Shown piece by piece: positions 6,624 through 47,751 of a DNA stretch of 64,000 nt. Origin of the DNA: Sphingomonas sp. Leaf20 (GTDB taxonomy: Bacteria > Pseudomonadota > Alphaproteobacteria > Sphingomonadales > Sphingomonadaceae). Under the pieces are notes generated by a model, which was not told the DNA's origin, searched no databases, and saw only the letters and a program-made list of their open reading frames with translations. The number at the start of each line of letters is the position of its first letter. Positions within the stretch are counted from its first letter, which is position 1. The stretch lies in assembly GCF_001421535.1 (NCBI RefSeq), contig NZ_LMKN01000011.1, positions 1 through 64,000 of the forward strand, given 5' to 3'. Both the position numbers and the translations under genes were made by a program.

Positions 6624-9600
6624 CTATTCGGCTGGCTGAAGGGTCGCGGCGGGGGCAGCGGCTGGCTTGCGGCGTTCGAACCGCATCGCCAGCGCCCGTG
6701 CGACGACATAGAAAGTGGGGGTGAAGAGCAGGCCGAAGCCGGTCACGCCGATCATCCCGAAAAACACCGCGGTGCCGAGCGCCTGGCGCAGTTCGGCGCC
6801 CGCCCCGTCGGCGATCACCAGCGGCACCGCGCCGAGGATGAACGCGAAGCTCGTCATCAGAATCGGCCGCAACCGGTCCTTCGCCGCGCGCACCGCCGCC
6901 TCGACCGGGGACAGGCCATCCTGTTCCTCGGCCTGCTTGGCGAACTCCACGACCAGGATTGCGTTCTTCGCGGCCAAGGCGATGAGCACGACCAGCCCGA
7001 TCTGCGTCAGGACGTTGTTGTCCATGCCCCTCAGATTCACCCCGGTCATCGCCGCGAGCAGACACATCGGCACGATCAGGATGATCGCAAGCGGTAGCGT
7101 CAGGCTCTCATATTGCGCGGCGAGCACGAGGAAGACGAACAGCACGGCCATCCCGAAGACCAGCGCGGCGGTGCTGCCGGCCGCCTTTTGCTGGTAGGCG
7201 ATGCCGGTCCAGTCATGCGCGTAGCCAGCGGGTAGCGACGCATCGGCGAGCTTTTCCATCGCCACCAGCGACTGGCCCGAGGAATAGCCCTTCGCGGTGT
7301 CGCCATCCACCTCGACCGCGGGGAAGAGGTTGTAGCGGACGACGCGGTACGGGCCGGTCTTGTCTTTGAAGGTCGAGACCGAACCGACCGGGACCATCTG
7401 GCCCGAGTTGGAGCGCGTCTTGAGGTTGGCGATGTCCGCGGTGGTGTTGCGGAACGGTGCGTCGGCCTGCGCGGTGACGCGGTAGGTACGCCCTAACAGG
7501 TTGAAGTCGTTGACGAACGCCGAGCCGAGATAGACCTGCAACGCCTCGAACACGCGCTCGGGGGGGACGCCGAGCAGATTGGCCTTGGCGCGGTCGACAT
7601 CGGCGAAGATGCGCGGTGTGGCGGTGTCGAAGAAGGTGTAGACCTGCGCCAGGCCCTTGGTCTGGTTCGCCTTGCCGATCAGGTCGTAGCTCGTCTTGCC
7701 GAGCTCGCCATAGCCGTGGCCGCCCTGGTCCTGCACCATCAGGCGATAGCCGCCGGCCGAGCCGATCCCCTGGATCAGCGGCGGCGGGACGATCAGCAGC
7801 CGCGCTTCGGTGATGTCGCCGGTCGCCTTCTGCGATTCCGCCATGATGCTGGCGAGCGTGACGCCAAGCTTCTTGCGTTCCTCGAAGCTTTTCAGCGGGA
7901 TGTACGCAGCGGCACTATTGGGGGCGAGCGTCTGCGACGGGCCGTCGAAGCCCGCGAGCATGACCGCGCCCTTGACGCCGGCGAGCGGCAGGATGCGCTT
8001 GGCGACCTTCTGCATCACCGCGTCGGTACGCTCGACCGACGAGCCCGGCGGGAGCTGGATGACGGTCAGGAAATAGCCCTGGTCCTGCGCAGGGACGAAG
8101 CCCGACGGGGTGACCATGAACACGCCGACCGTGACCGCGATCAGCGCGGCATAGGCGACCATCATCCGCTTCGGCGCGGCGACGAGGCGCGCAGTGAGGC
8201 GGGCATAGCTTTCGCTCATCCGCTCGAACCCGCGGTTGAACGCGTCGCCCGCGCGGCGCACCGTGCGGGTCAGGCGATTGCCCGAGTCTGCAGGGGCGTT
8301 GGGCTTGAGCAGCATCGCCGCGAGCGCCGGCGACAGCGTCAGCGAGATGAGCAGCGAGATGATCGTCGCGGTCGAGATCGTCACTGCGAACTGGCGGTAG
8401 AACGCGCCGGAAAGCCCGGTCAGGAACACCGTCGGGATGAACACCGCGCACAGCACGAGCACGATCGCGACGAGCGCACCCGACACCTCGTCCATCGACG
8501 TGCGCGCGGCCTCCAGTGGCGAGAGCCCGTGTTCGAGGTTGCGCTCGACATTCTCGACCACGACGATCGCGTCATCGACGACGATCCCGATCGCGAGGAC
8601 GAGGCCGAACAGCGAGAGGTTGTTGAGGCTGTAGCCGAACGCGGCGAGCACCGCGAAGGTGCCGATCAGCGAGACCGGGATCGCCACGATCGGGATGATC
8701 GCCGCGCGCCATTTCTGCAGGAAGACGAGGATGACCAGAACGACGAGGATCATCGCCTCGAACAACGTATGCTTCACCGCGTCGATCGACTGCGCGATGA
8801 ATTCGGTCGGGTTGTAGATGACCTTGTATGCGAGGCCCTTGGGAAAGCGCTTCGACATGCTTTCCATCTCGGCGGTGACGGCCTGCGCGGCGCCGAGCGC
8901 GTTCGAGCCGGGACGCTGGAAGACCGCGGCAATGACCGTGGGCTTGCCGCTGAGATAGGTGTTGGCGCCGTAATCCTGCGCGCCGAGTTCGACCCGCGCG
9001 ACGTCCGAGACGCGGACCTGGCGGCCCTGCGCATCGGTACGGATGACGACGTCCGCGAACTGCTTGGGATCGGTCAGGCGCCCTTGCGTCTCGACGTTGA
9101 GCTGAAACGCGCTGTTGCCCTTGTCGTACGGCGGCTGGCCGAGCGTGCCGGCGGCGACCTGGACGTTCTGTGCGCGGAGCGCCGCGACGATCTCGCCCGC
9201 GGTGAGGTCGAGCGCGGCGGCGCGGCCGGGGTCGATCCACACGCGCATCGAATAATCGCGCGCGCCGAACAGCTGCACGTCGCCCACGCCGTCGATCCGG
9301 CTGAGGCGATCGCGGACCTGAGTCAGCGCGTAGTTGGAGATGTAGCCGCGATCGAGCGAGTTGTCGGGCGAGACGAGGTTCACGACCATCAGGAAGTCGG
9401 GCGACGTCTTCCGCGTGACGACGCCCAATCGCTGGACGTCCTCGGGCAGCCGCGGCACCGCGACCGCGACGCGGTTCTGGACGAGCACCTGTGCGGCATC
9501 GAGATCGGTGCCGATCTTGAAGGTGACGGTGATCGTCACCTTGCCGTCGCCGGTCGATTGCGACGACTGGTACAGCATGTTGTCGACGCCGTTGATCTCC

Positions 9601-30379: not shown

Positions 30380-31651
30380 CTATCGTGCACGCACCGTCGG
30401 CACCTGCGCTATGTCCGTCGTCCAGCACGGCGACCGCATCTCCGACCGCATCTTCCATTCACGTTTGAACCCCTGCGATGCCGTCACTGCGCTCCACGTG
30501 CCGAATCTGCCGTTGATCGCATCGAGCGCGCCCATCAGCCGATCTCGCTTCGCCGTGTCAGCTTCGAACAGCGTGCGCGGCCGATCATCTTCGGGCAGCA
30601 GGTCGTCGAGCATGATGCCGGCCTTCGTGTAGGCATAGCCATCCCGCCACGCCTTCTCCGCGCCGCGCCTGGCGGCCGCGATCAATTCGAAGCTATCGTT
30701 CGTCATCGGATGAAGTGTCACCATCCTTGAAGCGCCGTATTGCGGGCGATCCGGCCTGTGCTTGTTGGTGTGGAAGAACGCCGTCAGCCGGGCAGCGACC
30801 AATCCGTGCGATCGCAGCTTCTCGCCAGCGCGGAGTGCGTATTGCGACAGCGCACCCATCATCCGTTCGAAGTCGCAGATAGGCGTCCCGAACGATCGGG
30901 TCACCGCCATGCCTTTTCGTCGCGGTTCGACTGCCTCAACCGCGTTGGACGGAACGCCGCGGAGTTCCGCGACCAGTCGCTCCAGGACGACCGTGCCGAC
31001 GGCGCGTGCCTGCTTCATAGGCATGTCGCGCAGTTCGCCCGCGGTATGGATGCCAAGACCGATAAGCTTGCGTGCCGTGGCACCGCCAACGCCCCACACG
31101 TCCCCGACCGCAAAAACCTGCATCACATCGCGGCGCGTGCCCTCTTCGCGAAGATCCGCGACGCCAGCGAATCTCGGGTCCTTCTTGGCCGCGGCGTTGG
31201 CCAGCTTGGCCAGCGTCTTCGTCTCCGCGATGCCGACGCAGGTGGGGATCGTCGTCCACTGCTGAACCTGGGCACGCATCTTGTGAGCATGTGCGACGAG
31301 ATCACGGTTATCAAACCCCGCCAGGTCAAGGAATGTTTCGTCGATCGAATAGATCTCGAAATCCCGTGCGAACGGCGCGCAGGCGGCGATCACCCGGCGC
31401 TGCATATCACCGTAGAGCGCATAATTTGACGAGCGGACCTGAATGCCGTGTCGCCGGACCATGTCACGCAGGTGGTGGATCGGATCGCCCATCTTGATCC
31501 CGAGCGCCTTTGCCTCGGCGGATCGGGCAATCGCGCAGCCGTCGTTGTTCGAAAGGACGATGACCGGGACGCCGACCAGGCTGGCGTCAAAAGCACGTTC
31601 GCAGGATACGTAGTAGTTGTTGCAGTCGATCAGGGCGATTGGCGTGGTCAT
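30380..31651 (-). CDS. umuC: DNA polymerase V catalytic subunit UmuC, 423 aa
   Basis: This is a Y-family translesion polymerase. The N-terminus [22 protein letters not shown] carries the first catalytic Asp; [10 protein letters not shown] has the SxDE active-site pair (Asp and Glu); [20 protein letters not shown] and the helix-hairpin [15 protein letters not shown] complete the palm/thumb. The C-terminal little-finger part ends in [15 protein letters not shown]. Length fits UmuC (about 420 aa). Its ATG overlaps the umuD stop (ATGA), so the two are coupled. It makes error-prone DNA synthesis past lesions after activation of UmuD. Confidence 0.96.
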
Positions 31652-32124
31652 GCCATCTTGCGTGCGACGCCGACGACGGTGCCCCATATCTCCACATGCT
31701 CGTCGACCAGGATGTCAGCGAATCCGTCGGCTTCAGGCACCAGCCAGTGACGGCCGTCGACGAAGCGCAGGCGCTTCAACGTCCTGTCGCCGTGCACGAG
31801 TGCGACGACGATTGCCCCGGCCCTTGGCTGCTTGGCGCGGTTCACGACGATCAGATCGCCGTCATTGATCCCGGCGCCGGACATGGATCGACCATCCACC
31901 CGCATGATGTAGCTCGCTGCCGGATGCTCGACCAACCACGCGCCGAGATCGATCGGCTCCTGCATGTCGTCCTGCGCAGGCGACGGAAAGCCGGCCTGCG
32001 TATGCACCAGGAAAAACGGCACCTCGCACGGCACGAGCGCGAACGGGACATCGTGAAGTCGCACCGGATCGTCACGTCGGTTCAGTGGTACAACGACCGG
32101 CCGGCCTTGGGGGATTGCGGACAT
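31648..32124 (-). CDS. umuD: UmuD-like S24 peptidase, 158 aa
   Basis: The S24 self-cleavage features are visible: an Ala44-Gly45 cleavage site in QAGFPSP, the Ser80 nucleophile in GRSMSGAGI, and Lys117 in RTLKRL. The 43-residue leader ahead of the cleavage site is somewhat longer than the 24 residues of the E. coli protein. After RecA-stimulated autocleavage, UmuD' joins UmuC to form polymerase V. The gene lies 3 bp after a 67-aa gene and overlaps umuC, making a three-gene SOS operon under the LexA box at 32407-32421. Confidence 0.94.
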
Positions 32125-34208: not shown

Positions 34209-35249
34209 ATGACGATATCGCATCCTGCCCCCACCGATGCCCGTGTCGAGGAGCGCGCCGCGGTCGACGCCGCCACCTTTGCCGCCGAGATCGCGGTGCG
34301 CGACGCGCCGATCGTGTTGCGCGGTCAGGTTGCGCACTGGGCAAGCGTCCGCGCCGCGGCGGGTGGCGATCGCGCGACGGCGGCGTATCTGACCGGGCTT
34401 GGCGATGGCGGCAAGCCGATGGAGGTGCTGATCGGCGGCCCCGAGTTCGGCGGCAAGTTCTTCTATCGCGGGGATAACCTGGAGGGGTTCAACTTCCACC
34501 GTGAGAAGGCGCCGCTTGGCGTGTTGCTGAGCGAATTGCTGCGCTTGTCGGGTGTTCCCGAAGCCGAACGGCATGTCCTCTACGCGAACGCGGCAACCGC
34601 GCCCGAGCATCTGCCGGGATGGGCGGCGGCAAATCCGCTCGACCTGCCGATGGGCGGGGCGACGCCACGGTTGTGGATCGGCAACGGATCGCAGACCGCG
34701 ACGCATTATGACGGGTCGACCAATCTTGCCTGCGTAGTCGCGGGCGAGCGGCGGTTCACGCTGTTTCCCCCCGATCAGGTCGGCAATCTCTATTTGGGGC
34801 CGCTCGACCGGACGCTGGCAGGCCCGCCTTCGAGCATGGTCGATCCGCTCGCGCCCGATCTCGAGCGGTATCCGCGCTATGCCGAGGCGCTCGGTCATGC
34901 GGTGGTCGCCGATCTGGGGCCGGGCGATGCGATCTTCATCCCTGCGATCTGGTGGCACCATGTCCAGGCGTTCGGGACGCTGAACGTGCTGTGCAACTAT
35001 TGGCGCGCCTATGATTCGAGCGTGTCGGCGTTCCATGCGGTGGTGCACGCGATGATGGCGGTGCGCGACCTGCCCGCGGCGGAGAAGGCGGGGTGGCGCG
35101 CGTGGTTCGAGCATTATGTCTTCGCCGACGAGGCGACAGCGGCGGGCGATCATTTGCCCGCGCCCGCGCGCGGCGTGCTCGGGCCGGCTAGCCAGGACCG
35201 GACCGAGCGGATTCGCGGCTATCTGCTGAAATCGCTCCAGCGCCGTTGA
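34209..35249 (+). CDS. JmjC/cupin-like hydroxylase-type protein, 346 aa
   Basis: The protein has the double-stranded beta-helix of JmjC/'cupin_8' proteins. Metal ligands are seen as His166 and Asp168 (ATHYDGSTN) and His250 or His251 (WWHHVQA) with the usual beta strands between (CVVAGERRFTLFPPDQVGNLY, GDAIFIPAIWWHH). Such enzymes use Fe(II) and 2-oxoglutarate to hydroxylate proteins or small molecules. Members often lie beside tryptophan-halogenase-like genes and TonB receptors in sphingomonads and xanthomonads. It converges on the halogenase operon, stopping 3 bp from the GH9 gene. The ribosome site is weak. Confidence 0.88.
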   Translation: MTISHPAPTDARVEERAAVDAATFAAEIAVRDAPIVLRGQVAHWASVRAAAGGDRATAAYLTGLGDGGKPMEVLIGGPEFGGKFFYRGDNLEGFNFHREKAPLGVLLSELLRLSGVPEAERHVLYANAATAPEHLPGWAAANPLDLPMGGATPRLWIGNGSQTATHYDGSTNLACVVAGERRFTLFPPDQVGNLYLGPLDRTLAGPPSSMVDPLAPDLERYPRYAEALGHAVVADLGPGDAIFIPAIWWHHVQAFGTLNVLCNYWRAYDSSVSAFHAVVHAMMAVRDLPAAEKAGWRAWFEHYVFADEATAAGDHLPAPARGVLGPASQDRTERIRGYLLKSLQRR

Positions 35250-35252
35250 GCG

Positions 35253-36995
35253 TCAGTCGCTGTCGAGATAGGCGGCGACCCAGACGAGCGGCGCGTTCCA
35301 GTTGATCGCCACCTCGTTCAGCGCATAGGCGTTGATGTCGTCCGCCCAGCAGCGTTGCGGCGCGCACCGGCCCTTCAGTGTCATGGCGACCGGATCGACC
35401 ATCGCGCTGCTGTTGGGGCCGCCCGACACCACCCCCGGCGGCGGCGGTGGCGAGGATGCCGACAGCTGATGCGCCCAGAAGCGGTGATGCGGGTTGGTCA
35501 GCGGCTTCCAGCCGGTCCCCGAGACATAGGATTGGCCCAGCGGATTGCGGCCGAGGATATAATCGGCCGCATCGACGACGCCGGCGCGGTAGCGCGCATC
35601 GCCGGTGAAGCGCTGTGCGAGGCCAAGCAGCATCGCGCGGTTGAGGATGCTGGAATTTGAGCCCCAATTATAAGTTTGCGAGGCGTAGGGGATGCGGTAG
35701 CCGGTGCGCGCGGTTTCGGCGAGGAAGCCGTCGGCGGCGGCGACGATCGCTGCACGCGCACCGGCGCGGATCGTCGCGGGAACGCCGCTTGCGGTCGCGA
35801 GCGTGATCATGCCGAGCGGCGCGACGCTGGCCCAGCCGGGTTCGCCCATCGCGCCGGTCGGCAGCGCGGCGCGGTAGGCTGCATCGCCGGTCGTCGCGAA
35901 CAGCTCGGCTGCAGCCCAGGCGCGTTCGTCGTCGAGCGTCTCGTCGCCATAGCCGCCGCTGCCGGTGAAGCCCTGCGCCGCGAAGATCGCGGGATTGCGC
36001 TCAGCCGCGGTCCAGGCGGCGCGCGCTGTGGCCAGGCACCGCGCGGCGAAGGCGGGATCGATCGGCCGCCAAAGCCGCGCGGCCTGCGCTGCAACCGCGG
36101 CCAGGTTCAGCGTCGCCGCGGTCGAGGGCGGGTAGAGGCGCCGCGGTTCCTTGTCGTCGGCCGGTGCGGTCGGCAATGTCGTCCAGCGCGCGTCGGCAAC
36201 CTTGTAGTGCGCCATGCCGCCCGCATCGACTGGTGTAAGTGCAAGCCTGCCCGAGCGATCGTGCGGCCCGACGGGAAGCGCGACGCGGGTGCCCGTGGGG
36301 ACCTGCATCCGCAGCATCCACTCGATCTCCCACCGCGCTTCGTCGAGCAGGTCGTCGCGGTGGTTGCCGGCTTCCGGCAGCCGCGCCTGACCGTCGGCGA
36401 ACACGCGACGCGCAAGCCCGGTTTCGTAGAGATTCTGCAGCGTCCACACCGCGATGCCGCCGTTGACGACATATTTGCCGTGGTCGCCCGCGTCGTACCA
36501 GCCGCCGGTGACATTGAGCGTATAGGGACAGCGGGACCAGACATTGCCCTTCTCGTCCGCTCCCGAAAAACAGGCGGCTACCTCGCGCGGGTGTCCGGCC
36601 GCGCGCGCCCAGCGGGCACCGGCCCAGCGCGCGTCGATCGGCGTGCCGGCGCGCTGCTGGTAGAAGAAGTTGAGCGCGTTCAGCGCAAGCGGGGCGTAGA
36701 CGTCGCGGCCGACGCGGAAGCGGCCGCTTTCGGTCCCGTCGACGCGCAGCCGGTAGTTGCCCGGGCGGGTGAGCGCGGTGAAGCGCGAGACATGGACATG
36801 ATCGCCTGACGCCGCGTCGTCGCCGCCGACTGTGGTGCGCCCCGTCAGCACGGTCTTGCCGGCGTCGTCGACCACGACCCATTCGAGCGGCGACGTCGCC
36901 GCATCGGCGACGATCGCAAGCTTGGGGTCTTCCGGACGGAAGCCGAGCTGGTTGAGGTTGATGACGGCCGCGGCAAGGACAAGGGCAATGGGCAT
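35253..36995 (-). CDS. GH9 glycoside hydrolase (endoglucanase/cellodextrinase type), 580 aa
   Basis: The N-terminus is a short signal-like segment (MPIALVLAAAV) followed by an Ig-like CelD_N domain (about 12-95). The GH9 barrel has NVTGGWYDAGDHGKYVVN (Asp168 and Asp171, base candidates), PYASQTYNWGSNSSILNR, NPHHRFWAHQ and the proton donor Glu561 in NEVAINWNAPL. It should cut beta-1,4 glucan or a related hemicellulose outside the cytosol. Its ATG overlaps the stop of the preceding halogenase gene (TGATG), so it is translated as the last cistron of that operon. This link is unusual. Confidence 0.94.
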   Translation of the reverse strand: MPIALVLAAAVINLNQLGFRPEDPKLAIVADAATSPLEWVVVDDAGKTVLTGRTTVGGDDAASGDHVHVSRFTALTRPGNYRLRVDGTESGRFRVGRDVYAPLALNALNFFYQQRAGTPIDARWAGARWARAAGHPREVAACFSGADEKGNVWSRCPYTLNVTGGWYDAGDHGKYVVNGGIAVWTLQNLYETGLARRVFADGQARLPEAGNHRDDLLDEARWEIEWMLRMQVPTGTRVALPVGPHDRSGRLALTPVDAGGMAHYKVADARWTTLPTAPADDKEPRRLYPPSTAATLNLAAVAAQAARLWRPIDPAFAARCLATARAAWTAAERNPAIFAAQGFTGSGGYGDETLDDERAWAAAELFATTGDAAYRAALPTGAMGEPGWASVAPLGMITLATASGVPATIRAGARAAIVAAADGFLAETARTGYRIPYASQTYNWGSNSSILNRAMLLGLAQRFTGDARYRAGVVDAADYILGRNPLGQSYVSGTGWKPLTNPHHRFWAHQLSASSPPPPPGVVSGGPNSSAMVDPVAMTLKGRCAPQRCWADDINAYALNEVAINWNAPLVWVAAYLDSD

Positions 36996-38497
36996 CAGAT
37001 TGTCCTGTCCTGACCCAACCGTGCCAGCGCGTCGGCATGGGGGGGCAAGTGCGTCAGCGAGGTGGCGACGACGCGTTCTATCTGAGCGAGACGCTTTGCC
37101 GCGATGGCGATCGGCAGCGCGTCGCAGATTGGGTCATGGCCGGTCACGGGTGCGTCCTGTCCGGTCAGCAGCGCGAGCCAGCTGACCTCGTTGAACAGCT
37201 CGTCCGCTTCGCGGAAGATGCGTCCGCCGGCGCGGAACAGCGCGAGCTTTTCGGCGAGGCCATCCGGGATCGGCGCCGCCGCGCGCTCGCGCCAGAAGGG
37301 TTCGGTACGGGCATTGAGGTGATAATGCGCGACGAGGAAGTCGCGGATCCGGACGAACTCGCCGGTCATCGTGCGGTTGTACCGGTCGACGATCGCCGGG
37401 GCAGGGGGACCGCCCGTCGGAAGCATCCGCAACAGATGCTGAAGCCCGCTCTGCACCAGATGGATGCTGGTCGATTCGAGTGGCTCCATGAACCCCGCCG
37501 CCAGGCCGAGCGCGATGCAGTTGCCGGTCCAGAACCGGGTCCGATGCCCGGTGGCGAAGCGGATCACGCGCGGGTCGGCCAATGCCTCACCCTGCAGCCC
37601 TGCGAGCAGCGTCGCGGTCGCCTCGTCGTCGCTGCAGTGGCGGCTGGAAAAGACATGCCCGTTGCCGGTGCGATGCTGCAGCGGGATACGCCAGCGCCAG
37701 CCGGCGGGTTCGGCGATCGCGCGCGTGAGTGCGAGCGGCGCGGCGTCGGCGGCCGAAGGGACCGCGACCGCACGATCGCACGGCAGCCACAGCGACCAGT
37801 CGGTCCAGCCCGCCTGCAGCGCGCCCTCGATCAGCAGCGCGCGAAACCCCGTGCAGTCGAGGAACAGGTCGCCCTCGATACGACTGCCGTCGGCGAGATG
37901 GACCGCGGCGATTGCGGCGGGGCCACGCTCGACGCGGTCGACCCGGCCCTCGCGTCGGACGACGCCGTGCGCCTCGGCCTGCGCGCGCAGGAACGCGGCG
38001 TAGCGGCCTGCGTCGAAATGATAGGCATAGCCGATCCGCGACAGCGGTGAATCGCCGTTCGCGATCGGGCGCGAGAAGCGGCCGGCTTCGGCGGCGCGGG
38101 CTTCGAGCGAATAGGCGCCGAGCGCTTCGGCGGCACCCGCCTGGCGCGCGCGCAGCCACTGCGCGGCGAACGGCACGCCGGCGATATCGGTCCCGATTTG
38201 GCCGAACGGATGGACATAGGATTCACCCGGGCGCGTCCAGCCCTCGAAGCGGATCCCGAGCTTGTAGCTGCCGCCGGTCGCGCGGAGGAAGGCGTCCTCG
38301 TCGATCCCGAGCATCGCGTGAAAGGTTCGGATTGGCGGGATCGTGGCCTCGCCGACGCCGACCGTGGCGATCTCGTCCGATTCCACGAGCGTCACGCGCG
38401 TCCCGGCCGGGCCCAGCAGTCGGCCGAGCGCGACCGCGGCCATCCAGCCCGCGGTGCCGCCGCCGACGATCACGACCGATCCGAGCGCGGCCGTCAT
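36995..38497 (-). CDS. Tryptophan-halogenase-like flavoprotein D, 500 aa
   Basis: The protein has the flavin-dependent halogenase scaffold: GGGTAGWM (FAD loop, 12-19), GVGEATIPPI, Lys79 in GGSYKLGIRF (equivalent to the catalytic Lys of PrnA/RebH, same number), GWRWRIPLQHRTGNGH (the W.W..IP fingerprint that excludes monooxygenase chemistry), and EPLESTSIHLVQSG with the conserved Glu-Ser pair. All key residues are present, so it should be able to form HOCl and halogenate a substrate, which is unknown. It is the fourth gene of the operon and overlaps neighbours (ATGA upstream, TGATG with GH9). Confidence 0.94.
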   Translation of the reverse strand: MTAALGSVVIVGGGTAGWMAAVALGRLLGPAGTRVTLVESDEIATVGVGEATIPPIRTFHAMLGIDEDAFLRATGGSYKLGIRFEGWTRPGESYVHPFGQIGTDIAGVPFAAQWLRARQAGAAEALGAYSLEARAAEAGRFSRPIANGDSPLSRIGYAYHFDAGRYAAFLRAQAEAHGVVRREGRVDRVERGPAAIAAVHLADGSRIEGDLFLDCTGFRALLIEGALQAGWTDWSLWLPCDRAVAVPSAADAAPLALTRAIAEPAGWRWRIPLQHRTGNGHVFSSRHCSDDEATATLLAGLQGEALADPRVIRFATGHRTRFWTGNCIALGLAAGFMEPLESTSIHLVQSGLQHLLRMLPTGGPPAPAIVDRYNRTMTGEFVRIRDFLVAHYHLNARTEPFWRERAAAPIPDGLAEKLALFRAGGRIFREADELFNEVSWLALLTGQDAPVTGHDPICDALPIAIAAKRLAQIERVVATSLTHLPPHADALARLGQDRTI

Positions 38498-40011
38498 GCG
38501 CGCACCCGCGTCGGGCAGGTTCGCGCGATATACTCCTCGTGCCGCGGCATTCGCGATGCGGCGTCGGCGAACATCGCGCGCAACCGGTTGAACCGCGCAT
38601 CGACGTCACGCGCGTCGACCGCATCGGCGAGCCGGTCCCAGCCCTCGGGAACGATGCCCTGGCCCAGCAGCACCGCGACCCAGCTCGCCTCGGCGAACAG
38701 ATCATCCTCCCAGCGGAACAGCCGTCCGCGGCGACGCCACAAGGCGATCTTCTCGCTCAGGCTGTCGGGGATCGGCCGCGCACGCATCTCGCGCCAGAAC
38801 GGCGAATCCTCGCGGCGGGTCGCATGGTAATGGAGGATGAGGAAGTCGCGGACCTGGTCGAACTGCGTCGCTGCCAGCCGATTATAGGTGTCGATCTCGA
38901 CCGGCGAGAAGCCCTGGTCGGGAAACAAAGCGAGCAGTTTCGAGATGCCGGTCTGGACCATGTGGATGCTGGTCGATTCGAGCGGTTCGGTAAAACCGGA
39001 GGCAAGGCCTAGCGCGACGACGTTGCCGATCCACTGCTTCCGCCGCCGTCCCGCGGTGAAGCGCAGCAGGCGTGGTTCGGCGAGCGGGGTGCCGTCGACC
39101 CCGGCGCGTAGCGTCGCTGCGGCCTCGTCGTCCGAACAATGCGCGCTGCTATAGACATAGCCGTTGCCGGTGCGGTGCTGCAGCGGGATGCGCCATTGCC
39201 AGCCGGCCTCGCGCGCGGTCGAGCGGGTATAGGGGGTGATCGCCGCGCCGGCGTTCGCGGTCGGCATCGCAACGGCCCGGTCGCACGGCAGCCAGTGCGT
39301 CCAGTCCTCATAGCCCGCGCCCAGCGTCTGCTCGATCAGCAGGCCGCGGAACCCCGAACAGTCGAGGAACAGGTCCCCTTCGATGACGCGGTCGCCGGCC
39401 AGCATGACGTGGCGGACATGGCCGGTCTCGCCGTCGAGCGCGACATCGACGACGTCGCCTTCGACGCGCACGACACCGTCGCGCTCGGCGCGGCCGCGCA
39501 GGAAGCGTGCATAGAGGCCCGCGTCGAAATGATAGGCGTGCGCCATCTGCGACAGCACCGACGCCGGGTCGGGCGAGGGGGGCATGAACCGTCCCGCGCG
39601 CGCGGCGACCGCGCACAGTGAATAGGCCTCGATATCCTCGACGACCCCGGCGGCGCGGCGGCGACGCCAATATTGGTGGAAGCGCACACCCTCGATGTCG
39701 AAACCGAACCCGCCAAAGGGGTGCAGATAGCGCTCGCCAGGCGCACCCCAGTCGAGGAACTCGATCCCGAGCTTGAAGCTCCCCGCGGTCGCGGCGAGGA
39801 ATTCGGCTTCGTCGATTCCCAGCATCGCGTTGAAGCCGCGGATCGGCGGGATCGTCGCTTCACCGACGCCGACGGTGCCGATCGCGTCGGACTCGATCAG
39901 GGTGATGCTCGCCCCGGTCGGGATCAGCCGGGCGAGCGCGGCCGCCGCCATCCAGCCGGCCGTACCGCCGCCGACGATGACGATGCGGCGGACGGGGGCG
40001 CCGATCGTCAT
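38494..40011 (-). CDS. Tryptophan-halogenase-like flavoprotein C, 505 aa
   Basis: From the ATG at 40011 (overlapping the upstream stop as ATGA) the protein shows VIVGGGTAGWMAAAAL, GVGEATIPPIRGFNAMLGID, Lys80 in AGSFKLGIEFLDW, GYEDWTHWLPCDRAV, GWQWRIPLQHRTGNGY and EPLESTSIHMVQTGI. The residue set for halogenation is complete. It is roughly half identical by eye to proteins A and D, more in motifs, so they arose by duplication. Family members use reduced flavin supplied by a separate reductase; no such gene is in the cluster. Confidence 0.94.
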   Translation of the reverse strand: MTIGAPVRRIVIVGGGTAGWMAAAALARLIPTGASITLIESDAIGTVGVGEATIPPIRGFNAMLGIDEAEFLAATAGSFKLGIEFLDWGAPGERYLHPFGGFGFDIEGVRFHQYWRRRRAAGVVEDIEAYSLCAVAARAGRFMPPSPDPASVLSQMAHAYHFDAGLYARFLRGRAERDGVVRVEGDVVDVALDGETGHVRHVMLAGDRVIEGDLFLDCSGFRGLLIEQTLGAGYEDWTHWLPCDRAVAMPTANAGAAITPYTRSTAREAGWQWRIPLQHRTGNGYVYSSAHCSDDEAAATLRAGVDGTPLAEPRLLRFTAGRRRKQWIGNVVALGLASGFTEPLESTSIHMVQTGISKLLALFPDQGFSPVEIDTYNRLAATQFDQVRDFLILHYHATRREDSPFWREMRARPIPDSLSEKIALWRRRGRLFRWEDDLFAEASWVAVLLGQGIVPEGWDRLADAVDARDVDARFNRLRAMFADAASRMPRHEEYIARTCPTRVRA

Positions 40012-41411
40012 GCGCGCGCCCGCAACGCGGCCATCGCCTGCGCATAAGGGGGAAGCGCGCGGACCTGCGCGATCATCCGCGCACGCTGCTCGGCCAGATG
40101 CCGCTCGATCGTCGCCAGCGGCACTATGTCCGCGCGCGCATCGTAACGGCGCGGCATCAGGCCCATCGCGTCGAACATCACCGCCCAATCCTCCTCCTCG
40201 AACACTTCGTCGTCATACATCGGCAACCGCCCGCGCGCCGCGAACAGATCGTATTTCGCGGCCAGTGGTCCGGGTAGCGATGCCGCGCGGCGGTCGTCCC
40301 ACAGCGCGCCGGCGCGACCGGCCACGGCATAGTGCGCGATCAGGAAGTCGCGCGCGCCGTGTAACGCCGCGGCTGCGGTGCGGTTGAAGGCGGCGGCTTC
40401 GACGGGTGCCTGCGGTCCGTCGGGCCAGAGCTGGATCAGCTGCGCAAGCGACCGCAGCAGCAGCGTCAGTGCGGTCGGGTGCAGCGGTTCGAGCAGGCCC
40501 GCGGCGGCGCCCAGCGCGACGCAATTGCCCCGCCATGGCTCGATGCGGCGCGCCGCGCGGAACGGCTTGCCGGTTCCGCCAACGCTGCACGTCAGTCGCA
40601 CATCCGCGCCGTCGAACGGCCAGGTCGCGGTCCACCCCGCGTCCTGCGCGTCTACCTGCGTATAGGGCGGGGGGGCGCCCTGCGCGGGCACCGTCTCGGC
40701 ATGCGTGCGGTCGCAGGGCAACCAGCCGGACCAGTCCTCGGACGCGGGGCTGGTACGGCTGGCGATGCGCGCGTCGGTTCCCGAACAGTCGAGGACGAGC
40801 CAGGGTTCGATGCCGGTACCGTCCGCCAGTGTCAGCCTCTCGACGATGCCGTTCGCTGCGATCTCGGCATCGACGAACTCCGCGGACGCGCGTTCGGCCC
40901 CCGCCCGCAGCGCCGCCTCGCGGAGCAGCGCTTCATAGGGCGCGACGGGCAGATGCAGCGCATGCGCGATCGGCGCCCCGGGTGCGAACCGGCCCGCCTG
41001 CGCGGCGACCGCGGACAGCGCATGATCGGCCAGCCGGACCGGGTGCCCCGCCGCGCGCAGCCGTCCGACGAGCTGGTGAAACGCGATGCCTTCGAGCGGC
41101 GCACCGGTCTCGCCATAGGACAGGAACGCCGCCGCGCCGTCGGCCCGCCAGCCGCCGAACGCGACGCCCAGCGCATGGCCGCCGCCCGTCGTCCGGACCA
41201 ACGTCGCCGCGTCGAGACCGAGCTCGGCGTGGAAGCCCGCGAGCGCGGGCGGCACCGCGATCACCGGCGCGAAATCGCCCAGGCCATCGTCGCCGGTGCC
41301 GTCGTCGATCACCACCACGCGGTAGGACTCGCGTGGCAAGCGCCGCGCCAGCGCCGCCGCGGCGATCCAGCCGCACAGGTTCGCGCCCAGCACAGCCACC
41401 GTAGCCGTCAC
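40008..41411 (-). CDS. Degenerate halogenase-like flavoprotein B, catalytic residues lost, 467 aa
   Basis: It aligns along its length with A, C and D but is shorter and divergent. The FAD loop reads GANLCGW instead of GGGTAGW. The GVGEATIPP motif is GLGDFAPVI. The position of the catalytic Lys is Ala80 (GGGHALGVAF), the Trp fingerprint is GWTATWPFDG, and the ESTSIH pair is HPTALTL. FLIAHY and the C-terminal helices remain. It can hardly halogenate and may bind flavin poorly. Being kept intact and translationally coupled between A (GTGA overlap) and C, it may be a structural or regulatory partner. Start codon is GTG at 41411. Confidence 0.88.
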   Translation of the reverse strand: MTATVAVLGANLCGWIAAAALARRLPRESYRVVVIDDGTGDDGLGDFAPVIAVPPALAGFHAELGLDAATLVRTTGGGHALGVAFGGWRADGAAAFLSYGETGAPLEGIAFHQLVGRLRAAGHPVRLADHALSAVAAQAGRFAPGAPIAHALHLPVAPYEALLREAALRAGAERASAEFVDAEIAANGIVERLTLADGTGIEPWLVLDCSGTDARIASRTSPASEDWSGWLPCDRTHAETVPAQGAPPPYTQVDAQDAGWTATWPFDGADVRLTCSVGGTGKPFRAARRIEPWRGNCVALGAAAGLLEPLHPTALTLLLRSLAQLIQLWPDGPQAPVEAAAFNRTAAAALHGARDFLIAHYAVAGRAGALWDDRRAASLPGPLAAKYDLFAARGRLPMYDDEVFEEEDWAVMFDAMGLMPRRYDARADIVPLATIERHLAEQRARMIAQVRALPPYAQAMAALRARA

Positions 41412-42955
41412 GCGGCAGCCCCGATCCCTGCAAGATAGTCCGCATGCGTCGGCATCCCCTCGGCGGTGCGGCGGCAGGCGTCGGCGACGGCCGCGACACG
41501 CGCGCGCGAGTCCGCGGCGGGCAGTGCGGCGACGAGGGGGTGGATGCGTTCGGGCATGATTCGCTGGCCATAATAGACCGCGAGCCAGCTTGCGGGCAGG
41601 AACATGCCCTCACGATATTGTTCGACGATGCCGCGATCGCGAAAGGCGGCGATCTTGCCGGCCAGCGAGGGGGGCAGGTCCATCGTCCGCATGTGGCGCC
41701 AGAACGGCGTGTCGTCACGCTCGGTCGCGCAATAATGAAGAACCAGGAAGTCGCGGACGCGGTCATATTCCAGCGCCATCGCGCGGTTGAATTCCGCGGC
41801 ATCCGCGGGGTCGAGCACGGCGTCGTTCGGGAACAGCTCGATCAGCTTGCCGATGGCCAGCTGGATCAGGTGGATGCTGGTCGATTCAAGCGGCTCGAGG
41901 AACCCCGCCGAGAGGCCGATCGCTACGCAATTGTCGATCCACTGGCGGTTCCGACGCCCGGTGCGGAATCGCAGCATCCGCGGCTCGGCCAGCGCCTCGC
42001 CCTCGAGATTGTCGAGCAGTACCGCGCGTGCGCGTTCCGGATCGGTGAAGCGGGTCGAGAAGACATGACCGTTCCCGGTGCGATGCTGCAGCGGGATCCG
42101 CCATTGCCAGCCGGCGTCGCGCGCGGTGGCGCGGGTATAGGGAACGAGGGGGCCGGTGTTCGCCGTCGGGACCGCCCATGCCGCGTCGCAGGGGAGCCAG
42201 TGCGCCCAATCCTCGTGTCCCGCCTTCAGGGCGCCTTCGATGAGCAGGGCGCGGAACCCCGAACAGTCGACGAACAGATCGCCCTCGATCCGCTGTCCGT
42301 CCGCCAGGCGAAGCGCCGCGATACCGCTCGGGCCCCGTTCGACGTCCTCGACGCGACCCTCGATCCGCGTGACGCCACGGGTTTCGGCATAGTCGCGCAG
42401 ATACGCGGCATAGAGCCCGGCATCGAACTGATACGCATAGGAATAGGTCGACCCGACCGATCGCGGATCGTCGAGCGGCGGCGTGAACCGCCCGGCTCGT
42501 GCGGCAACGATCGGGAGCGAGCACGCGGCGAGTCCCGGCGTCTCATCCGGCTTGCCCCGGTTCGCGTGGAGCCAATGCTGATGGAACGGCAGCCCGTCGA
42601 CGTCATGGCCGAAATCGCCGAACGGATGGATGTAACTGTCGCCGATCCGACCCCAATCGCAGAACTCGATGCCCAGCTTGAACGTCGCCTTGGTACGCCG
42701 GACGAAATCGGCTTCGTCGATACCCAATCTTTGATTGAAAAACCGAATGTGAGGGACCGTGGCCTCGCCGACACCAACCGTCCCGATCTCCTCGGACTCG
42801 ACCAGCGTGATATCGGCCAGGCGTCCCGCTGCGCTCGCACCGGTCGTAAGGCCGAGCGTAGCCGCAGTCATCCAGCCTGCGGTACCGCCACCAACGATGA
42901 CGATGCGTAGCCTTGCACGTCCGCTCAATCCCGCCTCCCGATATGTTGCATTCAT
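41408..42955 (-). CDS. Tryptophan-halogenase-like flavoprotein A, first gene of the operon, 515 aa
   Basis: The protein has VIVGGGTAGWMTAATLGL, GVGEATVPHIRFFNQRLGID, Lys93 in KATFKLGIEFCDWG, GHEDWAHWLPCDAAW, GWQWRIPLQHRTGNGHVF and EPLESTSIHLIQLAI, so the complete active-site set is there. It has an N-terminal extension of about 15 residues ahead of the FAD loop. Its start is 123 bp from the divergent TonB receptor; the shared intergenic region carries the xyl-box-like operator. FDH genes beside TonB receptors are known in Xanthomonas and Brevundimonas, where indole or aromatic compounds were halogenated in vitro but the natural substrate is unknown. Confidence 0.94.
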   Translation of the reverse strand: MNATYREAGLSGRARLRIVIVGGGTAGWMTAATLGLTTGASAAGRLADITLVESEEIGTVGVGEATVPHIRFFNQRLGIDEADFVRRTKATFKLGIEFCDWGRIGDSYIHPFGDFGHDVDGLPFHQHWLHANRGKPDETPGLAACSLPIVAARAGRFTPPLDDPRSVGSTYSYAYQFDAGLYAAYLRDYAETRGVTRIEGRVEDVERGPSGIAALRLADGQRIEGDLFVDCSGFRALLIEGALKAGHEDWAHWLPCDAAWAVPTANTGPLVPYTRATARDAGWQWRIPLQHRTGNGHVFSTRFTDPERARAVLLDNLEGEALAEPRMLRFRTGRRNRQWIDNCVAIGLSAGFLEPLESTSIHLIQLAIGKLIELFPNDAVLDPADAAEFNRAMALEYDRVRDFLVLHYCATERDDTPFWRHMRTMDLPPSLAGKIAAFRDRGIVEQYREGMFLPASWLAVYYGQRIMPERIHPLVAALPAADSRARVAAVADACRRTAEGMPTHADYLAGIGAAA

Positions 42956-43078: not shown

Positions 43079-46000
43079 ATGTCGGGAGCAATGGCCAAGT
43101 TCGAGATCACACGCGTCGCGCGTCGGGGAACCCTCCTGAAAGGTGGTGCTTCACTGCTGGCGCTGTGCCTGGCCACTGCGCCGAATGGCGCTTTGGCCCA
43201 GCAGGCCGGTGCTACAGCTGACCAGGCGATGCCGACGCCGAACGCTGCAAAGCGTACCGCACCTTCTGAACGTGCTGCGGGAACGGTGGCCGGGGCGCCG
43301 CAAATGGGCGCGGCGCAGCCATCCGCGAACGGGCAGGTGCCCTCCGGCGGCGCCGAAGTGACGCAGGCCGAGCAGGCGACCGCGACGCCCCAGGACGAAG
43401 CCGCCGATCAGGACATCGTCGTCACCGGCATCCGCCAGAGCCTGCAGAGTGCGCAGGCGATCAAGCGCAATTCCGAAGTCGTGGGTGATTCGATCTCGTC
43501 CGAAGATATCGGTGCGCTGCCCGACCGTTCGGTCACCGAAGCGCTGCAGCGCGTGCCTGGCGTGTCGATCAGCCGCTTCTCGGCCGGCGCCGATCCCGAT
43601 CACTTCGCGACCGAAGGTTCGGGCGTCACCGTCCGCGGCCTCAGCTACACGCGATCCGAGATCAACGGCCGCGATTCGTTCAGCGCGAACAACGGCCGCG
43701 GCTTGTCCTTCGCCGACGTGCCCGCCGAGCTGCTTGGCGGCGTCGACGTGTTCAAGAGCCCGTCCGCCGACATGATCGAAGGCGGCATCGGCGGCTCGGT
43801 CAACCTGCGCACGCGCCTGCCGTTCGATTCCACCGGACTGGTGTTGGGCGGGACGCTCGAGAACAATTACGGCGATTTCGTCAAGAAGTCGGCGCCGACC
43901 GTCTCGGTTCTCGGCAGCAATCGCTGGGAAACTGGCATTGGCGACTTCGGCATTCTTGCCAGCTTCGTGCGTTCACAGGTCCGCAGCCGCGCCGACAGCG
44001 TGCAGATCTCGAACTGGGGCGAGCGTGTGATCGGCGCCGACGGCTCGCTGTTGCAGCCGGTCGATGCGACCACCGGCGTGGTCAACACCGGCCGCACCGT
44101 CTACGTGCCCCGCGGCGCGGCGATCCGCAGCCAGGAATTCAACCGAACGCGCTATGGCTATTCGGCCGCCGGCCAGTGGCGCAGCCCTGACAAGTCGATG
44201 ACCGCGACCGCGCAATTCCTGCGGACCGACTCGCGCGAGGCATGGACGGAGAATTCGATCGAGGTCGCGACCGACAACGTGCTGACCGCGGGCGATTCCC
44301 AGCCCTTTCCCGGCACCAGCTTCACTTATGATGACGACAACGCCTTCACGAGCGGCTTGATCACCGGACCGAACGGCTATCGTGCGGACCAGGACCCGGC
44401 AAACGGCGGTGACCAGCGCACGCCGACCAACGGTCTTCAAAGCAACAATATTTCACGCGGCAATAATTCGCGATTCCGCACGAACGATGCGAGCTTCAAT
44501 CTGAAGTGGCAGGCGACCAACCGGCTTGGCATCAATCTCGATTATCAGCATGTCTGGTCGCAGGTGAAGGTCACCGATCTGACCGTATGGGGCACGTCCT
44601 ATCAGAATGCCGACATTCGGCTCGACGGTACCAACCCCGCCTATGTGAACTTCGTGCCCGTTACGAATACGCCGAACAACTACCAGAACGCGGCGCACCC
44701 GAGCTACCTCGACGCGTACAACAACTTCTATCGATCGGCGATGGACCATATTGAAGACAGCAAGGGCAACGAGGATGCAGCGCGCATCGACCTTGATTAT
44801 TCCTTCCCTGAAGACAGCTGGCTGACCTCGGTTCGCGTCGGCTATCGCTTCGCCGACCGGCAAAACGAAGCCCGTTCAACCGGCTACAATTGGGGCGTGC
44901 TCAGCGAGATCTGGGGTGGCGGCAATAATCAAACCAATGCGGCCGCTCCGACCGGACCAGGTGGCCCTGTCTGGTTCGATCGCCCGATCGATGGCAATCC
45001 CGTCACGCGTAACGAGGGTAATCTCGGACCGCAGCAGGCGTTTCTGTACGACAATTTCTTCCGCGGCCAGGCGAACGATGCGTCGAACGGTGGGCGCGTG
45101 TTCGTACCGGGATCATTCCTCCAGAATTACGACACCGCGACTCAGGCGATCAGCCAGATCGCGCAGGAATGGCGCACCTTCACGAGCAACCTTTCGGGTG
45201 CCGAGGGTTGGGTCCCATTGGCCGGCCGTGCCGGCGTCATTGCCGGAACCCCGTTTCTGCCGGGCGAGATCAACCCGGTCAGCGAGCGCAATAATGCAGT
45301 CTACGCGATGGCGCGGTTCGGGAACGATCTGTCCAATGGGTGGAACCTGAGCGGTAATCTTGGCGTGCGCTACACCAAGACGCGACGTGTCTCCTCAGGG
45401 TTCTTCGCGTTCCCGCAGCAGGCGTTTAATTGCCCGGCGTTGACGCCGGAAGAGGTCGCCAATGGAGGTGTCCCGTCGCGGTTCTGCTCGTTGCCCCAGG
45501 CGGTGCGCGACTCCGCCGTTGCATTCCAGAACGGATCGCTGGCCCCGAATGACGCGCGGCTGACCTATGATTACTTCCTGCCGAGCTTCAATGTGAAGCT
45601 GGCGATGGGCGGCGGTTTGCAGTTTCGCGCGGCCTTCACCAAGAGCGTCGCACCGCCTGATTTCGGGCTGACGCGGTCGTTTTATAATATCAGCCTGAAC
45701 ACAAGCGATCAGACCATCGCATTCAACGGTTCGCCCATCGCGAATTTTCAGGTCGGCAACCCATATCTGAAGCCGGTCCGCGCCGACAATTACGACCTGA
45801 CTGCGGAATGGTATTTTTCGAATGTCGGCCAGCTCACGCTGTCGCTCTTCAAGAAGGATCTGTACGGCGTACAGACCAACAGCCTGCAGCGGCAGAGCTT
45901 CACCAACAACGGCGCGACCTTCGATGGGATCATCACCACCCCGCTGAATTCGACCGAGACCGGTCGTGTAAAGGGCTTCGAGGTCGGATATCAGCAGACC

Positions 46001-46495
46001 TTCGACTTTCTACCCGGGGTGCTGAGCGGTTTCGGCCTCGCCGCGAACTTCACCTATGTGAAGTCGTCGGGAGTCTCGCAAGAAAACCTCGACGAGAACG
46101 ATCCCAACGTCGCGGCTGGGATTATCTCTAACGTCGACACCAGCGGACTGCCGCTTCAAGGTTTGTCGAAATATCAATTTAATATCGCGCCCTTCTATCA
46201 GCGCAACGGTGTGGAAGTCCGTGCCGCCTATAATTGGCGGTCGAGGAATCTCCTGACGATCCGCGACGTGATCGCTCCGAACGCCCCGGTGTACGCGGAA
46301 AAATACGGGCAGCTTGACGCATCGATCTTCTATGCAGTGACACCGGCAATCAAGATGGGGTTCCAGGGCGTCAACCTGACCAACTCGATTACGCGAACAT
46401 CGTACGTAATCAACGATGATCTGCTGACGCGGCCGCGCAACTGGTTCATCGCGGATCGCCGCTTCACCTTCTCCATTCGCGCGTCGTTCAGATAA
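43079..46495 (+). CDS. TonB-dependent receptor for an oligosaccharide or related ligand, 1138 aa
   Basis: After a signal peptide (GASLLALCLATAPNGALAQQ) and a disordered Ala/Pro/Gln-rich segment to about residue 105, a TonB box-like stretch leads to the plug domain: DIVVTGIRQSLQSAQAIKRNSEVVGDSISSEDIGALPDRSVTEALQRVPGVSISR, typical of the large Caulobacter/Xanthomonas sugar receptors. The rest is a 22-strand barrel with RAAFTKSVAPPDFG and a C-terminal FSIRASFR. Two start codons are possible, 43079 or 43091. The 1138-aa length fits the extended receptors. The upstream operator points to xylan-type ligands; transport across the outer membrane is powered by TonB. Confidence 0.95.
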   Translation: MSGAMAKFEITRVARRGTLLKGGASLLALCLATAPNGALAQQAGATADQAMPTPNAAKRTAPSERAAGTVAGAPQMGAAQPSANGQVPSGGAEVTQAEQATATPQDEAADQDIVVTGIRQSLQSAQAIKRNSEVVGDSISSEDIGALPDRSVTEALQRVPGVSISRFSAGADPDHFATEGSGVTVRGLSYTRSEINGRDSFSANNGRGLSFADVPAELLGGVDVFKSPSADMIEGGIGGSVNLRTRLPFDSTGLVLGGTLENNYGDFVKKSAPTVSVLGSNRWETGIGDFGILASFVRSQVRSRADSVQISNWGERVIGADGSLLQPVDATTGVVNTGRTVYVPRGAAIRSQEFNRTRYGYSAAGQWRSPDKSMTATAQFLRTDSREAWTENSIEVATDNVLTAGDSQPFPGTSFTYDDDNAFTSGLITGPNGYRADQDPANGGDQRTPTNGLQSNNISRGNNSRFRTNDASFNLKWQATNRLGINLDYQHVWSQVKVTDLTVWGTSYQNADIRLDGTNPAYVNFVPVTNTPNNYQNAAHPSYLDAYNNFYRSAMDHIEDSKGNEDAARIDLDYSFPEDSWLTSVRVGYRFADRQNEARSTGYNWGVLSEIWGGGNNQTNAAAPTGPGGPVWFDRPIDGNPVTRNEGNLGPQQAFLYDNFFRGQANDASNGGRVFVPGSFLQNYDTATQAISQIAQEWRTFTSNLSGAEGWVPLAGRAGVIAGTPFLPGEINPVSERNNAVYAMARFGNDLSNGWNLSGNLGVRYTKTRRVSSGFFAFPQQAFNCPALTPEEVANGGVPSRFCSLPQAVRDSAVAFQNGSLAPNDARLTYDYFLPSFNVKLAMGGGLQFRAAFTKSVAPPDFGLTRSFYNISLNTSDQTIAFNGSPIANFQVGNPYLKPVRADNYDLTAEWYFSNVGQLTLSLFKKDLYGVQTNSLQRQSFTNNGATFDGIITTPLNSTETGRVKGFEVGYQQTFDFLPGVLSGFGLAANFTYVKSSGVSQENLDENDPNVAAGIISNVDTSGLPLQGLSKYQFNIAPFYQRNGVEVRAAYNWRSRNLLTIRDVIAPNAPVYAEKYGQLDASIFYAVTPAIKMGFQGVNLTNSITRTSYVINDDLLTRPRNWFIADRRFTFSIRASFR

Positions 46496-46596: not shown

Positions 46597-47751
46597 TCAG
46601 GCGCGGTGTGGGGCGGCGGCAAGCGCGGCGGCGATCGCCGTGTACATGGGTTTGGGCTTGAACGCGGCGTCATAGGGGCAGGGGCGGCGGCGTGGCTTGT
46701 CCTTGCGCGGCTCGAACCCTTCAATCCAGCTATAGCGATCGGTCATTCCCCACAGCAGCACGTCGCGAAGCTGCGGATAGGCGAGCATCACGTCGAGGTA
46801 GCCGCGCGTAAAATCCGCCACCGCTCGGTCGCGAACTGCAACGTCGGCGGGAAGCGAATTGTCGCGTACGTCGAGCTCGGTAATCACCAATCCATAGCCC
46901 ATCGCGGTCACCTCATCGAGGAAGCGGCGCCACTCGCCCTCCAGCTCCGCGATCGTCGCACGCGCATCGATCCCTTGTGTGACCAGGTGCGACTGCACGC
47001 CTAGCGCATCGACCGGCACGCCCCGCGTCTTGAACCCTTCGAGCAGCTTGAGAACCCCTGCGCGGTGCGTGGCGTTGCCGGGCTCCCAGCTCATATAGTC
47101 GTTATAGACCAGTTGTGCCTGCGGCGCGGCGCGGCGCGCGGTGCGAAAGGCGAGGTCGAGCGTTGCCTCCGGGCTACCCATCGCCCGCGACAGCGCGGTC
47201 TGGTACAAGCTCGCATCCTTGGGATCGACCGCCTCGTTGACGACGTCGTAGCTCCTGATCCGGCTGCCGTAGCGGCCACACACGGTGCTGACATGATCGA
47301 CCAGGAGGCGTTCGGCTGCACGCGCGGGGGTCGCACCAAAGTCGTGTGTTTCTTCCCAGCGCGGCATCCATTTCGGCTGATGCCACAACAGATTGTGCCC
47401 GCGGACCGGTAGCGCGTTGGCGTCCGCCCACGCCATCATCGCATCGAACCGCGCAAAGTCGAACTGGGTCGCACTCGGACGCAGCGCCTGCCACTTCATC
47501 TCGTTCTCGGCGACCAGCAGACTACAGTCGCGCATCAGCAGCGCGGCGTAGGCCGGGTTCGCAAACGAGCCGCGATCGGCACCCTGAGCGCCCCAGGCGA
47601 AACTCGATCCCATCCGCATGCCCTTCGCCGCAGCGAGCTGCTTCAGGCTCCTCGGTGCGACCTCGGGCTCGCTTGCAGCGCTGCCCCGTGCCCCCACTAA
47701 TACGGCAAGACCTGCAAGCATCGACAGCCCGCTGCGACGTGTAATATCCAC
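46597..47751 (-). CDS. GH10 endo-beta-1,4-xylanase, 384 aa
   Basis: The signal peptide is MDITRRSGLSMLAGLAVLVGARGSAAS, with a twin-Arg that could be Tat-like. GH10 motifs are in order: LVAENEMKWQAL, RGHNLLWHQPKWMP, YDVVNEAVDP with acid/base Glu173, VYNDYM, GVQSHLVTQGID, ITELDVRDNS with nucleophile Glu292, and LLWGMTDRYSWI. It cuts internal beta-1,4 bonds of xylan. The xyl-box-like site at 47770-47783 lies 19 bp upstream of the start, so its control by the same regulator as the receptor and GH3 gene is likely. Confidence 0.97.
   Translation of the reverse strand: MDITRRSGLSMLAGLAVLVGARGSAASEPEVAPRSLKQLAAAKGMRMGSSFAWGAQGADRGSFANPAYAALLMRDCSLLVAENEMKWQALRPSATQFDFARFDAMMAWADANALPVRGHNLLWHQPKWMPRWEETHDFGATPARAAERLLVDHVSTVCGRYGSRIRSYDVVNEAVDPKDASLYQTALSRAMGSPEATLDLAFRTARRAAPQAQLVYNDYMSWEPGNATHRAGVLKLLEGFKTRGVPVDALGVQSHLVTQGIDARATIAELEGEWRRFLDEVTAMGYGLVITELDVRDNSLPADVAVRDRAVADFTRGYLDVMLAYPQLRDVLLWGMTDRYSWIEGFEPRKDKPRRRPCPYDAAFKPKPMYTAIAAALAAAPHRA

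Follow-up and report, generated by a model that had tools for sequence, protein, structure and literature searches.

In the window, i.e. the whole 64,000-nucleotide stretch of Sphingomonas sp. Leaf20 DNA analysed here, one gene in a run of halogenase genes is best read, judging from its sequence and its structural model, as a folded but catalytically dead halogenase copy, i.e. a pseudohalogenase. This gene, termed slot 2 after its operon position, is kept under purifying selection, has a single origin and occupies a fixed place in the operon. We consider it fairly probable that slot 2 and the active-type halogenase gene A (slot 1) preceding it represent an ancient halogenase-pseudohalogenase pair, a conserved two-gene unit the products of which form a physical complex. 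As far as can be told from sequence comparison, the pair is widespread and specific, which strengthens the earlier inference of a retained partner protein.

A degenerate member in a run of halogenase genes

Four tandem halogenase-family genes are present on the reverse strand of the window in the order A, slot 2, B, C, followed by a gene for a family 9 glycoside hydrolase (Table 1). All four encode PF04820 proteins. A, B and C retain the catalytic lysine (in the context FKLG in A and B and YKLG in C), ESTSIH, W.WRIP and GGGTAGW, whereas slot 2 is devoid of all four. Here, Ala80 is found at the lysine position, the segment EPLHPTALT corresponds to EPLESTSIH such that His311-Pro312 take the place of Glu-Ser, and GWTATWP occurs where GW.WRIP is expected, the stretch past WTATWP being shorter than its counterparts in A, B and C. 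When slot 2 was aligned with PrnA chain 4z43 by phmmer, HALGVAF fell on FKAAIKF and EPLHPTA on EPLESTG, stretches which we take to represent K79 and E346 of PrnA. The slot 2 frame has no internal stop and overlaps each neighbor by 4 bp (end of A at 41408 and GTG of slot 2 at 41411; end of slot 2 at 40008 and ATG of B at 40011). Alignment against A, B and C thus bore out the motif losses listed in the initial annotation (Ala80, HPTALTL, GANLCGW and a missing W.W..IP fingerprint), and the complete frame overlapping both neighbors was likewise found as described.

Table 1. Positions of slot 2, its altered motifs and the adjacent genes in the window
Feature	Position	Strand	Remarks
Cupin_8 (JmjC-like) protein	34209..35249	(+)	frequent neighbor of such loci
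Glycoside hydrolase family 9	35253..36995	(-)	last gene of the overlapping run
Slot 4 (C)	36995..38497	(-)	active-type halogenase
Slot 3 (B)	38494..40011	(-)	active-type halogenase, ATG at 40011
Slot 2, putative pseudohalogenase	40008..41411	(-)	467 aa, GTG start, stop codon included
HPTALT, residues 311-316 of slot 2	40464..40481	(-)	replaces ESTSIH
WTATWP, residues 260-265 of slot 2	40617..40634	(-)	replaces W.WRIP
Ala80 codon of slot 2	41172..41174	(-)	replaces catalytic Lys
GANLCGW, residues 9-15 of slot 2	41367..41387	(-)	replaces FAD-loop GGGTAGW
Slot 1 (A)	41408..42955	(-)	active-type halogenase, all motifs, inferred partner
TonB-dependent receptor (TIGR01782)	43079..46495	(+)	divergent from the halogenase genes
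Glycoside hydrolase family 10	46597..47751	(-)	

The slot 2 protein scored 274 bits against PF04820 (cut-off 21), but the match fell into two parts and did not cover profile positions 267-307. Seven halogenase-family proteins were found in the genome, not counting a further 219-bp match that scored 24.7 bits, and slot 2 is the only one with such a weak, broken full-length PF04820 match. AF2 models were obtained for the window protein (pLDDT 94.8, pTM 0.92) and for slot 2 from Arenicella (pLDDT 89.0, pTM 0.89). The best PDB fold matches of the former were 9luq (Z 44.8), 6y1w (Xcc4156, 43.7) and 6frl (BrvH, 43.4) with rmsd values of 2.0-2.3 over 452-460 residues, and A, B and C had their best sequence matches in these three entries too. 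The window protein is therefore predicted to adopt a complete halogenase fold. Compared with the active tryptophan/indole halogenases, it shares PF04820 and the fold but lacks the lysine, Glu-Ser, GxGxxG and W.W.IP. No NCBIfam model matched it at 0.001, and Pfam returned PF04820 alone, with neither a DNA-binding nor a signalling domain. The latter result bears on the idea that slot 2 has taken up a moonlighting role on its halogenase fold, acting as a sensor or regulator in control of the operon. Pseudoenzymes can serve in such roles, and the fast divergence of slot 2 described below would suit one, but given this domain content and an apparent coupling of its translation to A we regard a regulatory function as very unlikely. 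Elsewhere in the window (30380-32124), two reverse-strand open reading frames resemble a UmuC/UmuD-type pair when their translations are judged by eye.

Loss of catalytic motifs throughout the slot 2 clade

The lysine column was read in 106 slot 2 rows and contained S in 43, A in 41, R in 10, T in 6, V in 4, L in 1 and K in 1. The sole lysine belongs to Arenicella locus L119, where the other motifs are gone. Full-length frames are present in 103 of the 106 rows; the remaining three cover fewer than 380 aligned columns and were excluded from the motif counts. Non-redundant sets under 90% identity comprised 63 slot 2 and 58 slot 1 proteins. Among the slot 2 proteins, none has the FAD strap GVGE or W.W.IP, one has the Ser, six have the Glu and 30 have GxGxxG, versus 58, 56, 58, 58 and 58, respectively, among the slot 1 proteins. 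GxGxxG is lost in 33 of the 63 slot 2 proteins, the window protein included, and the terminal Glu of strand 2 is kept in 31. Fifteen residues do not vary among 31 slot 2 proteins, namely G9, P55, L81, G82, F111, R141, D208, G259, W260, W293, A299, G301, P330, R354 and W409. Because the flavin loops are lost in about half of the clade while fold-forming residues persist, slot 2 appears to be non-catalytic but folded.

The same census speaks to the possibility that slot 2 is not dead at all and instead is a flavoenzyme with other chemistry, e.g. a QhpG-like hydroxylase that lacks the lysine. A precedent exists in QhpG, a protein of halogenase-like fold that, according to PMC7876137, hydroxylates peptidyl tryptophan. 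The NCBIfam QhpG model (cut-off 240 bits) was matched weakly by 5 of 31 slot 2 members (best E 3.7e-7), and retention of GxGxxG and of the strand 2 Glu in roughly half of the proteins would agree with flavin binding there. On the other hand, the QhpG model gave no match for the window protein, which has no NCBIfam match at all at 0.001, GVGE and W.W.IP have disappeared from all 63 proteins, and a shared flavin chemistry is not expected if half of the clade has a broken flavin loop. We therefore consider a different flavin-dependent activity to be quite unlikely.

Conservation and selection within the genus

A search with the slot 2 protein gave a match at 1e-40 in 129 of 295 same-genus genomes, many of these matches being active paralogs, and 40 same-genus regions were fetched for reading of the operon slots. 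The lysine was absent from slot 2 in 40 of 40 loci, even at only ~40% identity to the window protein, while the sister halogenases were Lys-bearing wherever the gene was unbroken. The nearest relatives come from Sphingomonas aerolata (94%) and S. faeni-type strains (73%). The A/slot 2 junction was a 4-bp overlap in 32 of the 40 loci and ranged from -1 to +11 bp in seven, with start codons picked by script; one junction was broken. Broken frames affected two B genes (L048, L050) and one slot 2 (L050). In L048 (G040, 6982-8500) B is interrupted and reads as two overlapping frames, with the adjoining slot 2 intact. In L050 (G216) and L106 the receptor, slot 2 and B are all frame-broken; these breaks fall within a single assembly and appear to stem from sequencing indels. 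Two Sphingomonas loci (L089:595-2076 and L090:657-2120, both on the reverse strand) carry an extra Lys-less halogenase-like gene across the TonB receptor.

The dN/dS ratio (NG86) to the nearest relative was 0.164 for A, 0.192 for slot 2, 0.126 for B and 0.168 for C. Over 21 pairs, from which L048 and L050 (broken genes) as well as L049 were omitted, the medians were 0.098, 0.179, 0.080 and 0.113, respectively, and the slot 2 maximum was 0.260. The initial annotation had named a lysine in homologs at this operon position, as a sign of recent decay, or a ratio near 1 as findings that would speak against a maintained pseudo-enzyme; neither was encountered, and the dead paralog is indeed found at a constant operon position in relatives. 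Recent decay of slot 2 is ruled out by the 40 Lys-less same-genus loci, the dN/dS values and the absence of the lysine from 105 of 106 rows in the wider set. Slot 2 nevertheless diverges faster than slot 1 (median identity 0.32 vs 0.53, 60 loci), and this rapid evolution, together with a dN/dS up to ~2x that of A, would also fit relaxed constraint.

Single origin, spread and linkage to slot 1

In a careful tree of 66 hand-picked rows, from which the divergent slot 2 rows L110_3 and L119_1 had been left out, slot 2 (100/100) and slot 1 (100/99) each formed one clade. A quick tree of 113 rows agreed (99 and 97) and placed L110_3 and the Lys-bearing L119_1 inside the slot 2 clade (SH-aLRT 99), the root and the placement of long rows being unsure. 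Alpha- and gammaproteobacterial members (e.g. L130, L132, L114) were grouped alike in both trees, as if the pair had moved together.

A 70-locus scan of named genomes reached Caulobacter, Brevundimonas, Niveispirillum, Steroidobacter, Cellvibrionales, Arenicella and other Pseudomonadales. Many of these loci were retrieved via the active slot 1, yet the degenerate gene again came next. The pair is missing at some scan loci; Alteromonas L118 has none. Further arrangements were noted during these scans. The middle gene of a halogenase triple (L111:9491-10975) has the Lys and W.W but reads EPLEAADTYLV and is a possible intermediate; similarity revealed no receptor in the L111 stretch. Lone Lys-less halogenase-family proteins occur in S. 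abaci, Steroidobacteraceae, Methylobacterium/Methylorubrum, Streptomyces and an acidobacterial MAG (L126, L138-L149), and those placed in the tree (L138, L139, L145) fell outside the slot 2 clade. Another recurring set (L157, L189, L193, L206, L211, L220, L223, L225) consists of a receptor, an FKQG/AKQG halogenase without ESTSIH, a Cupin_8 protein and an FKLGI/YKLGI halogenase.

The score of a slot 2 profile alone was rejected as a detector because active paralogs also reach ~420 bits in 199 family-level genomes; among the non-window matches listed there, only G304 (603 bits) and G405 (591 bits) were far above. Instead, a profile was built from 15 slot 1 proteins and run against 240 class-level and 299 phylum-level genomes at E <= 1e-170, with scoring limited to the best 5 or 6 candidates in each. 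This gave 80 regions, from which G000 and the G199 locus, the latter already included as L063, were omitted. These regions contain 122 halogenase-like genes, 111 with and 11 without the lysine. In a FastTree analysis of 369 Lys-bearing proteins, the slot 1 clade (support 0.99) comprised 106 rows, 11 of which stem from the 80 regions. A Lys-less gene lies next downstream of 11/11 slot 1-clade genes, found with a profile built from proteins whose dead neighbors were already known, versus 0/100 other Lys-bearing halogenases (Fisher p 2e-15, a value that ignores kinship). The 11 pairs originate from 10 genomes with seven genus codes, three genomes belonging to other classes of the phylum; L202 is the same locus as L136, which leaves 10 of the 11 as new. 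All 106 slot 1-clade rows, a number that includes repeats such as G004/L040 and L080 from one contig, are followed on the same strand by a halogenase-like gene, and this gene is Lys-less in 105.

These data also concern the view of slot 2 as a functionless, decaying duplicate. The loss of every catalytic motif and the highest dN/dS of the four genes are what such a gene would show. The ratio still amounts to only 0.18-0.19, however, frames are full-length in nearly all rows, and the single ancient clade spans Alpha- and Gammaproteobacteria with linkage in all 11 slot 1-clade cases of the 80 regions, such that loss of function is already contradicted and hardly credible.

The probable partner of slot 2

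At ten loci, slot 1 and slot 2 occur as a pair with no further halogenase gene 3' on the strand in view (L114, L116, L130, L132, L136 and, by the same criterion, L150, L154, L163, L173 and L180); the stretches of L117 and L120 end too early for a two-gene call. Since these ten loci hold only A and the dead gene, the partner of slot 2 appears to be A and not B, C or the receptor. Distance matrices were compared as a second approach, bearing in mind that distance correlations mix contact with common history. For 23 chosen loci having a slot 3, slot 1 and slot 2 distances correlated with r 0.865 (reached in 0 of 2000 permutations) and with a partial r of 0.72 given slot 3, while the partial r for slot 2 and slot 3 given slot 1 was 0.18. 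Correction for the receptor was possible for 60 of 63 pairs with a receptor of at least 750 aa in view. Here, the partial r was 0.61 for slot 1 and slot 2 given the receptor, 0.14 for slot 2 and the receptor given slot 1, and 0.63 for slot 1 and the receptor given slot 2. These partial correlations indicate that slot 2 tracks slot 1 and that slot 1 tracks the receptor. C is not favored as the partner, since slots 1 and 2 remain associated even where slots 3 and 4 vary or are missing. Of the two candidates for hetero-oligomer formation named in the initial annotation, A or C, the two-gene loci and the corrected slot 1 correlation hence favor A. Its broader proposal of a pseudo-enzyme kept as partner or scaffold gains support from purifying selection, the fixed place, the single origin and the intact predicted fold.

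Proposed function of the pair

The simplest use of a full-length dead paralog made after A would be as one half of a halogenase dimer. Crystals of tryptophan halogenases contain one conserved dimer according to PMC7336383, and an A/slot 2 heterodimer would replace this homodimer. Slot 2 would be translated straight after A via the stop-start overlap, and A would perform the FADH2/O2/halide chemistry. We propose that the two proteins probably heterodimerize, the dead subunit serving either to activate A or to present the substrate to it. Slot 2 may allosterically activate or stabilize A or, alternatively, contribute to a surface that binds a substrate larger than A can accommodate by itself; candidates are a peptide, an aromatic group carried by a glycan, or the receptor. 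Activation or substrate presentation appears likeliest given the fast divergence of slot 2 and the properties of BrvH-type enzymes, for which open sites and perhaps peptide substrates are described in the same source. A more far-reaching picture, to which we give slightly less than even weight, is that this entire clade of flavin-dependent halogenases represents a two-subunit enzyme. The pair would have arisen once and passed as a unit, in the company of TonB-dependent receptors, between Alpha- and Gammaproteobacteria, and the rapidly evolving dead subunit would determine which large substrate, such as a peptide, a receptor segment or an imported glycoconjugate, is halogenated by the active one.

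Slot 2 could also act as a free-standing binding or escort protein, using its old substrate cleft to capture a peptide, the receptor or an imported compound for delivery to A or to other enzymes; it would then not form a lasting complex with A. The fold and the cleft-forming domains are predicted to be intact, slot 2 diverges rapidly and a TonB receptor is constantly near, all of which would be in line with an escort. However, the linkage is specific for slot 1, no such neighbor is present at any of the 100 other halogenases, many of which are likewise located next to a receptor, and slot 2 and receptor distances barely correlate given slot 1. We thus judge the escort function unlikely and prefer the A/slot 2 heterodimer.

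If the heterodimer exists, it would be a pseudoenzyme case within a flavin halogenase family, and none was found in the literature searched. That search, mostly among papers available without subscription, yielded neither a described halogenase pseudoenzyme nor halogenase-TonB operons in sphingomonads; in PMC11337851 both terms are present, but in unrelated contexts. A dead pair member would explain why proteins annotated as tryptophan halogenases can be inactive and, if the slot 1 clade works only with its dead partner, single-protein assays may have missed the real enzyme.

Comparison with known systems

The closest solved relatives of slot 2, A, B and C are the halogenases of the BrvH/Xcc4156 type, which have the same full-length fold. 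According to PMC7336383, these enzymes are active on indoles in vitro while their native substrates are unknown. They retain the catalytic lysine, whereas the window protein is devoid of the lysine, Glu-Ser, GxGxxG and W.W.IP. QhpG resembles slot 2 in belonging to a related fold class without halogenation, and it acts on a protein substrate. However, according to PMC7876137, QhpG has a well-conserved FAD site and a fold closest to CmlS, in contrast to the broken FAD loop of the window protein.

In its presumed way of working, the pair can be compared to the deoxyhypusine synthase of trypanosomatids, where, according to PMC3663545, a dead paralog (prozyme) activates its sister 3000-fold. As in the prozyme case, a dead copy is kept with an active one, and slot 2 likewise has lost its catalytic residues, is co-inherited with one active paralog and is under purifying selection. 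The likeness concerns the way of working only: deoxyhypusine synthase belongs to an unrelated enzyme family in which complex formation and activation were measured, whereas the halogenase pair is known from sequence and models.
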